Origin: Brevundimonas sp. Root1279
Lineage (GTDB): Bacteria; Pseudomonadota; Alphaproteobacteria; Caulobacterales; Caulobacteraceae
Assembly: GCF_001425945.1 (NCBI RefSeq)
Contig: NZ_LMEB01000001.1
Location: 1-64,000, forward strand
Direction: 5' to 3'
Length of the DNA stretch: 64,000 bases
Of this stretch, positions 12,611-33,251 are shown piece by piece. The notes under the pieces were generated by a model. It did not search any database, had not been told where the DNA came from, and saw nothing but the letters and a program-made list of their open reading frames with translations. Positions within the stretch are counted from its first letter, which is position 1. The number at the start of each line of letters is the position of its first letter. Position numbers and translations under genes: made by a program.

Positions 12611-15523
12611 ATGAAATCCCGCCTGATCCTGACCGCCGCCGCCTCGGCCCTGCTGGCCGGCGTTTCGGCCTGCGCCACCGTCGATGCTCCGGCTCCGGTC
12701 GCGGCGACCACCACCACCGCTGCGAACGCCGACGCGCCGCAGCTGACGTGCAGGCCGACCCCGGTTCAGGCCCCGGTCGCGGCCGGCGAGGCCCCGGCGC
12801 TGGGCTTCCGCGAGTGCGTGCTGCCGAACGGGCTGCGGGTGTTCAGCGCGCAGGACCCCTCGACCGCCAACGTCACGGTGCAGGTCTGGTACCGCGTCGG
12901 CTCCAAAGACGATCCGGCCGGCCGCTCGGGCTTCGCCCACCTGTTCGAACACCTGATGTTCAAGTCGACCAAGAACATGCCGACCGAGACCTTCGACCGG
13001 CTGACCGAGGACGTGGGCGGCTTCAACAACGCCTCCACCTGGGACGACTTCACCAACTACTACGAGGTGGTGCCGGCCAACCACCTGGAGCGGCTGTTGT
13101 TCGCCGAGTCCGACCGGTTGGGGTCGCTGGTCGTCGACGCCGATGTCTTCGCCTCGGAGCGGGACGTGGTGAAGGAGGAGTACCGCCAGAGCTATCTGGC
13201 CAATCCGTACAACCGCTTCTTCGGCCTGCTGGCGCCGCAGACCATCTATGAGAACCACCCCTACCGCCGACCGGGCATCGGTTCGATCGAGGAGCTGAAC
13301 GCGGCGACCATCGACGACGTGCGCCGCTTCCACGCCACCTACTACCGGCCGGACAACGCCGTACTGATCGTGGCGGGCAATTTCGACCAGGCGAAGCTGG
13401 ACGGCTGGGTGGAGCAGTATTTCGGCGGCCTGACCAATCCGACCGCCGCCCTGCCCGCCAACAATGTCGTCGAGGCCGAGCCGACCGGACCGCGCGAGGC
13501 GACCTTCTACGGCGCGAACGTGCCGCTGCCGGCGGTGATGCTGGCCTGGCGCACCGTGCCCTACAGCCATGAGGACCGCGCCGCCCTGACCGTGCTGGAC
13601 GGCATCCTGTCGACCGGCGAGAGCAGCCGCCTGTACCGCTCGCTGGTCTATGAGAAGCAGATCGCCCAGCAGGCCAGCTCCACCCCGGACTTCGCCAATC
13701 AGGCCGGCAACCTGACCGCCTACGCCATCATGGCCGACGGCGAGTCGCCCGACGAAGGCGTCGCCGCCCTGCGCGCCGAGATCGCCCGCTTCCGCGACGC
13801 CCCGGTCACCGACGCCGAACTGGCCGAGGCCAAGAACGAGCTGGTCGCCGACCTCCTACGGGAGCGCGAAGGGGTCGACGACCGCGCCAACGCGCTCGGC
13901 TTCGCCCTGATGTGGGATGGCGATCCGGCCGCCGCCGATCGCGAGGTCGCCGCGCTCAAGGCCGTCACCGCCGCCGACATCCAGCGCGTCGCCAACCGCT
14001 ATCTGACCGAGCAGCGCATGATCACCATGCGCTACCTGCCGGCCGACGACGCCCACCCGCAGACCGAGCAGAACAAGAACGTCGACGCCCCGGTGCATGT
14101 GGCCGACCTGGCCGCCGCCGGCGTCCCGACCGTCCTGCTGCCCGAGGCCGAGCGCGCCCGCATCCCGTCGCCCGGCCCCGAGGTCGCCCCGGCGACGCCG
14201 GCCGTGGCCGACTTCAAACTGGCCAACGGCCTGCGCGTGCTGGTCGCCCCGACCGACGGCGTGCCTCTGGTTTCGGCGCGGTTGAGCTTCGACGCCGGGA
14301 CGCGCGATGACGGCCGCGTCCCCGGCCTGGCCAGCATGACCGCCGGCCTGCTGACCCAGGGCACCACCACCCGCTCGGCGACCCAGATCGCCACCGAGAT
14401 CGAGAGCCTGGGGGCCACCGTCGGCGCCGGCGCCGGGGTGGACTTCACCAATGTCTACGCCAACGCCCCGGCCGACGTCTTCCCGCAGACCCTGGCCCTG
14501 ATGGCCGACGTCGTGCGCAACCCGGCCTTCGCCCAGGAGGAGTTGGACCGCCAGCGCGACCAGACCCTGGACGGCCTTCGCGTGGCCCTGAGCCAGCCCG
14601 GCCAGATCGCCTCGCAGTCGGTCGGCCGGGTGGTCTACGGCGACGCCGCCTACGGCGCGCCGGGCTCGGGCACGGTGACCTCCCTGCCGAAGATCGACCG
14701 CAACGCCGTGGTCGCCTTCCATCGCGCTCACTTCGCCCCGAGCGACGCCACCCTGGTGTTTTCCGGCGCGATTACCGAGGCCCAGGCCCGCACCCTGGCC
14801 GAGCAGGCCTTCGGCGACTGGCGACCGGCGACCAGCGCCCAACCGCGGATGACCAATCCGGCCGGCGCCGTGCTGGCCCCGCGGGTGGTGGTGATCAACC
14901 AGCCGGGCGCCGGCCAGGCGGCGGTGGTGGCCGCCATTCGCGGCGTCTCGCGCACCGACGCCGACTACTTCCCGCTGTCGCTGGGCAACACCCTGCTGGG
15001 CGGGGGGTATTCCTCGCGCCTGAACCAGGAGGTGCGGATCAAGCGCGGCCTGAGCTACGGCGCCGGCTCCTCGCTGGGCGCGCGCGCCGATGAGGGCGTC
15101 TTCACCGCCAGCGCCCAGACGCGCAACGACGCGGTGCCGGCCGTCGCCGAGCTGATCCTCGAGGAGATCGGCCGCATGGGGACCGAGACCGTTTCGGAGA
15201 CCGAGTTGGCCCCGCGCCGGGCGGTCATGATCGGCGGTTTCGGCCGCTCGCTGGAGACCGTCGACGGCCTGGGCGGCTTCATCGCCAACCTGGCCCTCTA
15301 CGACCTGCCGATGAGCGAGCTGGCCGCCTATGCGGGCAACGTCCGCGCCGTCACGCCCGAGCAGGTCGAGGCGGCCTTCGCCCGTCACCTGCCGGGATCG
15401 GAAGCCAGCCTGGTGATCGTCGGCGACGCGGCCCAGTTCATCGACGCCCTGCGGGCCAAATATCCGAACGTGGAGGTGATCGCGCTGGACGACCTGGATC
15501 TGGATAGGGCGGCGCTTCGCTGA
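12611..15523 (+). CDS. M16-family zinc peptidase, lipoprotein
   Basis: A 970-residue insulinase/pitrilysin-like peptidase made of two tandem M16 halves. The first half carries the inverted zinc motif HLFEH near residue 112; the second half (from about 530) lacks it and is the usual structural partner. The N-terminus is a lipoprotein signal with lipobox LAGVSAC, so the mature protein is probably anchored in the envelope and degrades small peptides in the periplasm. The ATG at 12611 has only a weak ribosome site. The last base of the TGA stop is also the first base of a heptad-palindrome arm, and the next gene is convergent. Confidence 0.93.
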   Translation: MKSRLILTAAASALLAGVSACATVDAPAPVAATTTTAANADAPQLTCRPTPVQAPVAAGEAPALGFRECVLPNGLRVFSAQDPSTANVTVQVWYRVGSKDDPAGRSGFAHLFEHLMFKSTKNMPTETFDRLTEDVGGFNNASTWDDFTNYYEVVPANHLERLLFAESDRLGSLVVDADVFASERDVVKEEYRQSYLANPYNRFFGLLAPQTIYENHPYRRPGIGSIEELNAATIDDVRRFHATYYRPDNAVLIVAGNFDQAKLDGWVEQYFGGLTNPTAALPANNVVEAEPTGPREATFYGANVPLPAVMLAWRTVPYSHEDRAALTVLDGILSTGESSRLYRSLVYEKQIAQQASSTPDFANQAGNLTAYAIMADGESPDEGVAALRAEIARFRDAPVTDAELAEAKNELVADLLREREGVDDRANALGFALMWDGDPAAADREVAALKAVTAADIQRVANRYLTEQRMITMRYLPADDAHPQTEQNKNVDAPVHVADLAAAGVPTVLLPEAERARIPSPGPEVAPATPAVADFKLANGLRVLVAPTDGVPLVSARLSFDAGTRDDGRVPGLASMTAGLLTQGTTTRSATQIATEIESLGATVGAGAGVDFTNVYANAPADVFPQTLALMADVVRNPAFAQEELDRQRDQTLDGLRVALSQPGQIASQSVGRVVYGDAAYGAPGSGTVTSLPKIDRNAVVAFHRAHFAPSDATLVFSGAITEAQARTLAEQAFGDWRPATSAQPRMTNPAGAVLAPRVVVINQPGAGQAAVVAAIRGVSRTDADYFPLSLGNTLLGGGYSSRLNQEVRIKRGLSYGAGSSLGARADEGVFTASAQTRNDAVPAVAELILEEIGRMGTETVSETELAPRRAVMIGGFGRSLETVDGLGGFIANLALYDLPMSELAAYAGNVRAVTPEQVEAAFARHLPGSEASLVIVGDAAQFIDALRAKYPNVEVIALDDLDLDRAALR

Positions 15524-15609
15524 GGTTCTGGGTTCTAGGGGCTAGGTTCTAGGGAATTCCGGCATCGCCGGCGGTCTCCCTAGAACCTAGAACCTAACCC
15601 CTAGAACCT
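15523..15609. repeat. Heptad-palindrome element 1
   Basis: Two 33-nt arms (15523-15555 and 15577-15609) face each other across a 21-nt loop. Each arm is four heptamers (mainly AGGTTCT, plus one AGGGGCT or AGGGGTT) and an inner AGGGA. The odd heptamer is third in the left arm and second in the right arm, so units seem to have been shuffled rather than simply mutated. The element fills the space between two convergent genes and begins on the A of the M16 stop codon. Confidence 0.9.
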
Positions 15610-15612
15610 GAG

Positions 15613-16435: not shown

Positions 16436-16884
16436 AGGTTCTAGGTTCTAGGTGCTAGGTTCTAGGGGAAGAAGAGACGACCAAACTGCCTCTCAGAGCG
16501 GTCAACATTCGCCCGACCTCCTCGGCCTGACGCAACACAACATCGGTGGCGTCCCGAGGGGCAAGCTCGAGGTCCCCGACGAGGAGCAAGAAGGTCTCCA
16601 GCTCGGCCAATGAGCCTTTGGCGATGCTCACAAACTGAGCGTAATCCCGACGCGTCCCACGGCCATGACCTTCAGCGATGTTGGCCGGCACTGAGGTGGC
16701 CGCACGTATCATCTGGCCGGAGATACGGTACTCCTCGTGCTTCGGCATCTCGCGGGTCAGCCTGTAGACCGCGGCAGCCAACCCCATGCCCTTCTGCCAG
16801 ACTGTCAGGTCCCTGTAAGATCGCACCGTCACGTCACCGCTCCCCGATTGATCCCTAGAACCTGATCCCTAGAACCTAGCACCT
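16436..16884. repeat. Heptad-palindrome element 2, enclosing a four-helix-bundle gene
   Basis: Arms of 33 nt lie at 16436-16468 and 16852-16884 in inverted orientation. Both are four heptamers (AGGTTCT, AGGTGCT, and one AGGGATC) plus AGGGR, the same design as element 1, whose loop is only 21 nt. Here the loop is 383 nt and holds a gene. The left arm contains that gene's TAG stop, and the outer edge of the right arm contributes the AG of the DUF350 gene's TAG stop. The left arm ends one base from the serine protease start codon. Confidence 0.9.
16455..16832 (-). CDS. Four-helix-bundle protein (S23/IVP, Avd-like family)
   Basis: A 125-residue all-helical protein of the four-helix-bundle family first known from 23S rRNA intervening sequences and related to Avd of diversity-generating retroelements. 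Family features seen: VRSYRDLTVWQKGMGLA at the start, ISGQMIRAATSVPANIAEGHGR, and SIAKGSLAELETFLLL. Function in the free-standing context is unknown; basic surfaces suggest nucleic-acid binding. The start is a GTG at 16832 with GGGGAG seven bases upstream. Its last codons (Pro-Arg-Thr-stop) are read from the palindrome arm. Lying between inverted arms of a repeated element, it looks like cargo. No reverse transcriptase or rRNA is nearby. Confidence 0.88.
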   Translation of the reverse strand: MTVRSYRDLTVWQKGMGLAAAVYRLTREMPKHEEYRISGQMIRAATSVPANIAEGHGRGTRRDYAQFVSIAKGSLAELETFLLLVGDLELAPRDATDVVLRQAEEVGRMLTALRGSLVVSSSPRT

Positions 16885-17326
16885 ATCCAGTCAGAGCGGC
16901 GGCGAGGATCAGGGCGGTCGCCAGCTTGGCGCCGACCAGCAGGACGGCGGCGGAGATCTCGCCGTCGCGGATGCGCTGGGGCAGGCCGGTCAGCAGCAGG
17001 TCGACGATGCGGAAGGCCAGCAGCTGGAGAACCACCGTCGCCACGCCCCAGATGGTGATGTCGCGCACCGAGGTGGAGACGCTGAGGCTGACCGCCAGCG
17101 GGATGGCCAGGCCGACCAGCACGCCGGCGAAGGCGACCGCGGCGGCGGAGTTGCCCTCGCGGATCAGGCTGATCTCTTTCCAGGGGGTCAGCAGGGCGTA
17201 GATGACGGCGCCGGCGACAAGCAGGGCGAGAGTCACGCCCAGGTGAGCGAGGGTCGTCGGGAAACCGGTCGCGAAGGCCTGGACCTCCGGACTTTCCAGA
17301 ATCTGAGCGAGGGACGAGGAGTCCAT
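16883..17326 (-). CDS. DUF350 membrane protein
   Basis: A 147-residue integral membrane protein with about four helices (LGVTLALLVAGAVIYAL, AGVLVGLAIPLAVSL, GVATVVLQLLAF, AAVLLVGAKLATALILAA), matching DUF350, a bacterial inner-membrane family of unknown function. The ATG at 17326 begins just before the family similarity but has no good ribosome site; an in-frame ATG at 17365 is possible. Its TAG stop overlaps the outer edge of element 2. It lies downstream of rlmN, separated by element 3. Confidence 0.75.
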   Translation of the reverse strand: MDSSSLAQILESPEVQAFATGFPTTLAHLGVTLALLVAGAVIYALLTPWKEISLIREGNSAAAVAFAGVLVGLAIPLAVSLSVSTSVRDITIWGVATVVLQLLAFRIVDLLLTGLPQRIRDGEISAAVLLVGAKLATALILAAALTG

Positions 17327-17434
17327 TGCTGACCGCGTGACTGACACAACTCCCGCTTGCCCCATTGAAGCCCCAATCCGCAAGCGCGGCGGCGCCACAG
17401 TCGGTCAAGATCTGTGTCGGTGTGTGTCGGGCGA

Positions 17435-17552
17435 AGTGATTAGTGGTTCGTGATTAGTGGTTGGCCGGCAGGGGTGAACGCCGCCGGCGCCCAGCTGCCC
17501 CCCGCAGGCGGTCCAGCACTGACCAATCACTAATCACGAACCACTAATCACT
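17435..17552. repeat. Heptad-palindrome element 3
   Basis: Arms of 30 nt at 17435-17464 and 17523-17552, separated by 58 nt. Heptamers AGTGATT and AGTGGTT alternate, with one CGTGATT in the third position of both arms, followed by GG. The arms differ at one base, which would be a G-U pair in plus-strand RNA. The outer edge is five bases after the rlmN stop codon. Confidence 0.9.
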
Positions 17553-17557
17553 CGCCC

Positions 17558-18730: not shown

Positions 18731-18798
18731 GGCTGCATCCTTCGGTGGCGGGAGGCGGGGCTTATACCACAGATCGTGCGGGTTTTAAGGCGGGGGGG

Positions 18799-18946
<148 letters not shown>

Positions 18947-18949
18947 CAG

Positions 18950-19373: not shown

Positions 19374-19486
19374 AGTGATTAGTGGTTAGTGATTAGTGAT
19401 TGGCAGCGGCGTGTCCACGGCCGACGACGGGGCTACGACGACAGGGACCGCACAGGCCAACCATTAATCACTAACCACTAATCACT
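19374..19486. repeat. Heptad-palindrome element 5, in a divergent promoter region
   Basis: Arms of 30 nt at 19374-19403 and 19457-19486, each four AGTGATT/AGTGGTT heptamers plus GG, around a 53-nt loop. One unit in the right arm reads AATGGTT. Unlike its relatives it lies upstream of both neighbours, within the shared promoter region of the zincin gene and divL. Confidence 0.9.
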
Positions 19487-21892: not shown

Positions 21893-21977
21893 AGTGATTA
21901 GTGGTTAGTGATTAGTGGTTGGCGGCCTCGGGCGCCGCTTTGACACCCCAATCACTAATCACTAGCCACTAATCACT
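21893..21977. repeat. Heptad-palindrome element 6
   Basis: Arms of 30 nt at 21893-21922 and 21948-21977 with a 25-nt loop. The units are AGTGATT and AGTGGTT in alternation, with one AGTGGCT on the right. The two differences between arms would both be G-U pairs in plus-strand RNA, so all 30 positions can pair. It starts four bases after the divL stop and ends 22 bases before the next gene. Confidence 0.9.
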
Positions 21978-33166: not shown

Positions 33167-33251
33167 AGTGACGAGTGGCGAGTGACGAGTGGCGAGGTTC
33201 GCCGCGCGTTGCTCGCCACCACTCGCCACTAACCACTCGTCACTCGCCACT
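33167..33251. repeat. Heptad-palindrome element 7, between ahpC and ahpD
   Basis: The left arm (33167-33194) is AGTGACG and AGTGGCG twice each. The right arm (33224-33251) read in reverse complement is AGTGGCG, AGTGACG, AGTGGTT, AGTGGCG, then a degenerate fifth unit. The arms are less alike than in the other elements. It begins five bases after the ahpC stop and ends 13 bases before the ahpD ATG, so it lies within a two-gene operon. Confidence 0.85.

Follow-up and report, generated by a model that had tools for sequence, protein, structure and literature searches.

Inverted heptad arrays around PF05635 four-helix-bundle genes: an apparent, so far unnoticed family of mobile or formerly mobile elements

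Several described systems come close to the element analysed here. In Coxiella, the 23S rRNA intervening sequence (IVS) has the heptamer GACAGAT repeated in tandem just before the S23p/IVP open reading frame; RNase III excises this IVS (PMC4990558). Xanthomonas and Nostoc have G-rich GGGNATC heptamers, which according to Rehm et al. 2015 prefer four units, form inverted pairs, and lie at stop codons; that study found no mobile element linked to them and named no partner gene (PMC4692102). In REPIN/RAYT systems, short palindromes across extragenic space are accompanied by a less common partner that bears a gene and has related repeats at its flanks (PMC3116915, PMC3733652). The 7-nt TAACTGA repeats of Beggiatoaceae are intergenic, stop all three reading frames, and sometimes overlap gene ends (PMC4679880).

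Heptamer repeats and IVP are each already known. Among the papers searched, none connects PF05635 to heptamer arrays; bioRxiv preprints and the majority of subscription journals lay outside this search. To our knowledge, PF05635/S23p has solved structures (2gsc, 2rld) yet no assigned function, and the over-representation of heptameric repeats in bacterial genomes lacks an explanation: the linkage gives each of them a partner. Because each protein lineage has its own heptad, pairing proteins with matching or non-matching heptads allows direct tests of binding specificity, RNA processing, and mobility. The linkage also suggests a setting in which Avd, the cofactor of diversity-generating retroelements (DGRs), may have originated, and the elements may be an instance of spreading with neither a transposase nor a reverse transcriptase that can be recognised. 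Taken together, IVP and heptad arrays look like a single family of elements, mobile now or in the past, that has gone unnoticed.

The window element and PF05635 loci elsewhere

The window is a stretch of 64,000 nucleotides from Brevundimonas sp. Root1279 (the home genome; contig NZ_LMEB01000001.1, positions 1 to 64,000). Its IVP gene (PF05635/TIGR02436; 16455..16832, minus strand; 125 aa, GTG start) lies between two co-directional minus-strand genes: upstream, a DUF350 protein (PF03994; 16883..17398), and downstream, a trypsin-like peptidase (PF13365; 15613..16434). A preliminary description had proposed inverted arms around a four-helix-bundle gene of 125 residues, and both parts of this proposal hold. 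The arms form a 32-nt inverted repeat, 84% complementary, with 385 nt between them, and the flanks reach an inverted-repeat score of 19.5 against a maximum of 15.5 in 1000 dinucleotide shuffles. The protein matches PF05635 (E=1.5e-35; 122 bits, cut-off 33.8) and TIGR02436, "four helix bundle protein" (114.8 bits, cut-off 24). Its AlphaFold2 model has four helices (pLDDT 95.7) and superposes on chains of Xanthomonas XCC0516 (2gsc) with TM 0.84-0.95, as well as matching Bacteroides BT_0352 (2rld). Ranked after these structures is Avd of the Bordetella phage retroelement, at a TM of about 0.74, and the fold matches include Avd in DGR ribonucleoproteins. Sequence similarity to Avd is weak: the Avd model NF033474 scores 26.9 bits against IVP, below its cut-off of 80.

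Read in gene sense (minus strand), the order is DUF350, 5' array, short spacer, IVP, CCCTAGAACCTAGCACCTAGAACCTAGAACCT, one base, and the peptidase ATG. The G-rich arm TAGGTGCTAGGTTCTAGGGATCAGGTTCTAGGG (16853..16885, minus strand) is the 5' side and starts at the stop codon of the upstream gene; the opening bases of its array, TAGGTGC-TAGGTTC-TAGGGATCAGG-TTCTAGGG, provide the TAG stop of DUF350. The C-rich 3' arm CCCTAGAACCTAGCACCTAGAACCTAGAACCT (16436..16467, minus strand) ends 1 nt short of the protease ATG. The overlaps with both stop codons claimed earlier were likewise found: the IVP stop TAG (plus-strand CTA, 16455-16457) is read from within the left, gene-sense 3' arm, and the right arm overlaps the DUF350 stop (16883-16885). 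The predicted RNA fold of the element pairs both arms (z -3.5). The window contains no rRNA and no Rfam match, and none of 15 IVP loci checked lies in rRNA. An insertion in 23S rRNA, or a known RNA family, was rejected as an identity for the window element, given its DUF350 and peptidase neighbors and the absence of an Rfam match. Elsewhere in the window, positions 264-423 hold a perfect 80-nt tandem duplication (two identical copies).

Two slightly overlapping sets of PF05635 loci were compared: 79 from Pseudomonadota (genus, order, and phylum), and 72, all with named hosts, from many bacterial phyla and ANME archaea, among them Cyanobacteria, Chloroflexota, Acidobacteriota, Planctomycetota, Spirochaetes, Firmicutes, and Fibrobacteres. 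The strongest flank period was 7 or 14 nt in 76/79 Pseudomonadota loci, compared with 25/310 off-target windows of the same loci, and in 64/72 loci of the broad set, compared with 38/270 control windows. Inverted-repeat scores of at least 15 were reached by 58/79 Pseudomonadota loci (0.3% off target; 4.6% with arms swapped between loci) and by 55/72 broad-set loci (0/270 controls). Across PF05635 loci, the G-rich arm is the upstream one in gene sense. All three PF05635 genes of the home genome have inverted heptad arrays, with one heptad each (GAGGGTT, AGGTTCT, and AGTGATT), and cyanobacterial plasmid copies also carry inverted heptad arms. The expectation that homologues would generally carry such flanks is thereby met far beyond alphaproteobacteria, and the inverted heptad flanks of the window element are confirmed as part of a general rule for PF05635 genes.

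The loci without a 7/14-nt period in either set are mostly 8-nt (an 8-nt flank period occurs in 7 of the 72 broad-set loci). Units of 8 nt such as TAGGGCAG or TAGGGGAG occur in four Rhizobiales loci (L204, L214, L248, and L257) and one of Chloroflexi (L191); units of 6 or 9 nt were not seen as a clear unit among IVP elements. TAG is enriched in the heptads (0.48, compared with 0.20 in shuffled ones). The idea that units of 7 and 8 nt are favored as non-multiples of 3, giving stops in all frames, can be at most a partial reason, since stop-free classes such as GAGTGGC exist. The GAGTGGC arms at the aguA-aguB site (L034, L036, L037, L039, and L043) contain no sense stop codon and are apparently translated as the IVP N-terminus (MSGEWRVASGE...). 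On the Anabaena sp. 90 plasmid pANA02 (L377, 1501-1869), an IVP element with ACAGGTG arms separates cas6 from cas4 in a type I-D CRISPR locus.

Heptad identity and genomic placement

The heptad behaves as a property of the element and its protein. The two arms of an element share one heptad, differing on average at 0.64 of 7 positions, compared with 2.82 between elements, and heptad similarity drops as IVP diverges (Mantel r=-0.305; 0/999 permutations). Where the flanking genes are the same and the IVPs are less than 60% identical, an element's own arms pair at 20.9 and swapped arms at 9.0, which is chance level, so both arms have changed completely and together. In a tree of 51 genus-level IVPs, heptad class tracks protein lineage, not site. 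The aguA-aguB operon, for instance, harbors AGTGAGT-, GAGTGGC-, and AGTGATT-type elements on separate IVP branches; nested within its AGTGATT lineage are elements at two other sites that keep AGTGATT, including the second copy of the home genome (L003). AGGCAGT elements at several different sites retain AGGCAGT, and even at 65-80% protein identity, IVP pairs from different contexts have heptads in common much more often than the baseline. The strongest indication that gene and arms travel as a unit is this persistence of heptad class within a lineage across sites. Among IVP pairs more than 80% identical, no recent transposition was seen: 34 share their context and 1 does not, implying that any movement is slow or rare.

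Placement is equally regular. The upstream gene is co-directional with IVP in 125/134 loci, and both neighbors are in 102/134, with open reading frames called by a simple composition score rather than by a trained gene finder. The 5' arm starts at a median of -2 nt from the upstream stop codon (between -33 and +20 in 90/105 loci), and that stop is TAG in 52/105, compared with a baseline of 23% in the home genome. Sites include nuoC-nuoD, aguA-aguB, accB-accC, and carA-carB. A rare exception to co-orientation is found on the Nostoc edaphicum plasmid pNe_5 (L378), where an IVP element lies in opposite orientation between ribonucleotide reductase genes. An RNA-level step could explain the sense orientation and the placement at stop codons, and so could selection for sites that are transcribed and tolerate insertion.

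Empty palindromes and empty sites

Six palindromes without a gene lie in the window, none assigned to a strand. The first (15520..15612), between two convergent stop codons, has the AGGTTCT heptad of the window IVP element, in agreement with the earlier report of an empty element of the same arm design 1 kb away. The others have related heptads and are of the AGTGATT/AGTGGTT class, abutting the rlmN stop codon (17429..17557); the AGTGGCT class, with a facing stop codon 2 nt away (18798..18947); the AGTGATT class, between divergent genes (19374..19486) and 4 nt past a stop codon (21893..21977); and the AGTGGCG/AGTGACG class, about 12 nt past a stop codon (33167..33251). The predicted folds of all six have z values of -4.9 to -11.

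Scanning an 864 kb sample of the home genome (464+200+200 kb) at period 7 returned 26 hits, of which three are IVP elements and at least one (C5 79147) is a GC-rich false positive; control periods gave 0 or 1 palindromes, and four IVP-free congeners gave 0 period-7 palindromes in 400 kb. The empty palindromes have the same design and stop-codon placement as IVP-bearing elements: where a gene ends towards them, 16/24 lie within 25 nt of its stop codon. Most in the home genome have mutually unrelated loops. Ordinary MITE copies were rejected as an account of them after a loop-versus-loop BLAST gave only one good homologous pair. This pair, the clearest copied one in the sampled genome, consists of 17429-17557 and G000:C1:275769-275883, with loops 86% identical in inverted orientation. 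The heptads of the empty palindromes fall within one base of the three resident IVP heptads in 68% of cases, which is not significant (null mean 48%, 95th percentile 77%).

Across 131 congeneric genomes, there are 1640 matches to the pattern (TAGNNNN)3TAG and 284 to its reversed control. IVP is present in 68 of these genomes and absent from 63, and 72/131 carry arrays. IVP-positive genomes average 21.3 array hits and IVP-negative genomes 3.1 (Mann-Whitney p=4e-9), and the number of arrays rises with IVP presence (Spearman 0.58, p=4e-13), both without phylogenetic correction. Among the 63 genomes lacking IVP, 12 have at least 5 array hits.

The window locus itself is found in several states. 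In most relatives, the DUF350-peptidase junction is a 4-nt gap (TGA GGCC ATG) with no element; L132, L139, and L135 have a complete element, L134 and L123 have arms with an internally deleted IVP gene, and L124 and L129 retain degenerate palindrome remnants of about 100-120 nt. The suggestion that empty palindromes derive from cargo-bearing ones is thus borne out directly at this site; for empties elsewhere, most of which have unrelated loops, origin by internal deletion has not been shown. At the rlmN site, several relatives lack the palindrome and others have palindromes of quite different heptads. The empty 4-nt junctions yielded no clear target-site duplication, and no recent copy was seen.

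Explanations and relation to known systems

We consider it probable, though well short of secure, that these are intercistronic IVS-like elements in which IVP recognises the hairpin of its own heptad and serves as trans-acting factor for cargo-bearing and empty copies. This model starts from observations: the architecture, the matching of heptads between arms and within lineages, orientation, stop-codon placement, empty sites, internally deleted copies, co-occurrence with empty arrays, and purifying selection. An IVP gene between inverted, element-specific 7-nt arrays would insert at an operon gene's stop codon, in the sense direction. Once transcribed, the arms would pair as a long stem with the IVP frame as its loop, and we infer that RNase III would cut this stem, as it does in 23S rRNA IVSs, allowing the neighboring cistrons to survive the insertion. 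IVP, presumed to be an Avd-like pentamer, may recognise the heptad hairpin of its lineage as RNA or single-stranded DNA, and would thereby allow both kinds of copy, with cargo and empty, to spread and to be maintained. RAYT plays a comparable part for REPINs, but here no transposase or reverse transcriptase can be recognised. On the model of Avd, which handles RNA as a cofactor, IVP may supply specificity while host enzymes do the cutting and joining. Hairpin binding, RNase III processing of these mRNAs, insertion chemistry, and mobility itself are all inferred. Against the model count the failure to see any recent transposition, the unrelated loops, and the non-significant match to resident heptads; the IVP-lacking genomes with at least 5 array hits and the missing phylogenetic correction also count against it. 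We know of no catalytic fold for IVP, which is a further point against. The preliminary description had inferred a role for the protein in spread or maintenance: co-occurrence, co-inheritance of heptad and protein, and purifying selection favor it, but movement has not been observed.

The protein evidently does something, as its median dN/dS of about 0.1 (0.098 over 98 pairs) implies. Such strong purifying selection, maintained over dS above 1, also suits host regulation, in which IVP would be an RNA-binding protein domesticated by the host and the palindromes, spread passively, would be its mRNA 3'-end or intercistronic sites for control of stability, processing, or operon coupling. Long retention at one site (aguA-aguB ctx0, nuoC-nuoD) and stop-codon positions within operons of stoichiometric enzymes point the same way, but the patchiness of IVP (68/131 congeneric genomes), the clean 4-nt empty junctions and internally deleted copies, the several heptad systems in one genome, and element-level moves with arms do not, and we regard host regulation as unlikely while keeping it in serious play. 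The enzymes that might drive movement can be judged by their distribution. Were IVP to act like Avd of DGRs and pass hairpin RNA to a reverse transcriptase in trans, with reinsertion of the cDNA, the fold match to Avd (including DGR ribonucleoproteins) would make sense, and the sense-strand bias and stop-codon placement would fit an RNA route. We nonetheless find a retroelement improbable: no RVT_1 (PF00078) reverse transcriptase was found in the home genome, despite some 26 arrayed palindromes per 864 kb, and reverse transcriptase presence is unrelated to that of IVP (18/68 IVP-positive and 17/63 IVP-negative genomes).

Mobilisation of REP-like palindromes by a RAYT (HUH) transposase, with IVP as passenger, draws on their hairpin form and 3'-end placement and on one RAYT-like Y1_Tnp gene in the home genome (L339; G000:C9:121022-121300). 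We give it the least credence of all, because Y1/HUH transposases occur in only 4/131 genomes while 72 carry arrays, no heptad arrays were noticed around the home Y1_Tnp gene, and the GTAG-tagged REP design is missing. On genome distribution, both reverse transcriptase and RAYT were rejected as drivers of the arrays; with IVP itself under selection, this favors IVP as a specificity factor. Hardly more credible is that the arms are ordinary slippage repeats made symmetrical by quasi-palindrome correction, linked to IVP only through shared intergenic space. Slippage plus template switching would be expected to give tandem units and concerted arm changes, but it does not account for the 7-nt period (8 nt in a few cases) of almost every IVP gene against 8-14% of control windows, for the 0-1 palindromes at control lags, or for the fixed G-rich 5' polarity and a heptad that tracks IVP lineage. 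Although these controls disfavor it, slippage may explain how arms stay matched. Returning to the element model, a bolder version is offered as a conjecture that we rate somewhat less likely than not: a very widespread new class of mobile element, in which a non-enzymatic Avd-like pentamer would read a lineage-specific hairpin-arm code of 7 (sometimes 8) nt and direct insertion at stop codons without a transposase or reverse transcriptase of its own, and of which many bacterial heptameric intergenic repeats, the Xanthomonas and Nostoc ones among them, would be non-autonomous offspring.

The window element shares with the 23S rRNA IVSs of Coxiella and Leptospira its protein family and an open reading frame within complementary ends. 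Unlike them, IVP elements here occupy stop codons in protein operons, not rRNA; both of their arms are inverted heptad arrays private to a lineage, and gene-less copies are numerous. The GGGNATC repeats differ in that the IVP-element heptad varies by lineage, a G-quadruplex is not required, and IVP is the linked gene. With DGRs, the common feature is the fold: Avd/bAvd resembles IVP (TM about 0.74) with weak sequence similarity, whereas the home genome has no reverse transcriptase and no template or variable repeat was recognised at the window element. The TAACTGA repeats of Beggiatoaceae are direct arrays with no reported link to IVP, in contrast to the inverted arrays of IVP elements. Like REPINs, the empty palindromes of the window are inverted doublets that form predicted hairpins in extragenic space; unlike REPIN/RAYT, the partner is IVP rather than a Y1/HUH transposase, and the arms are period-7 arrays rather than GTAG-tagged hairpins.
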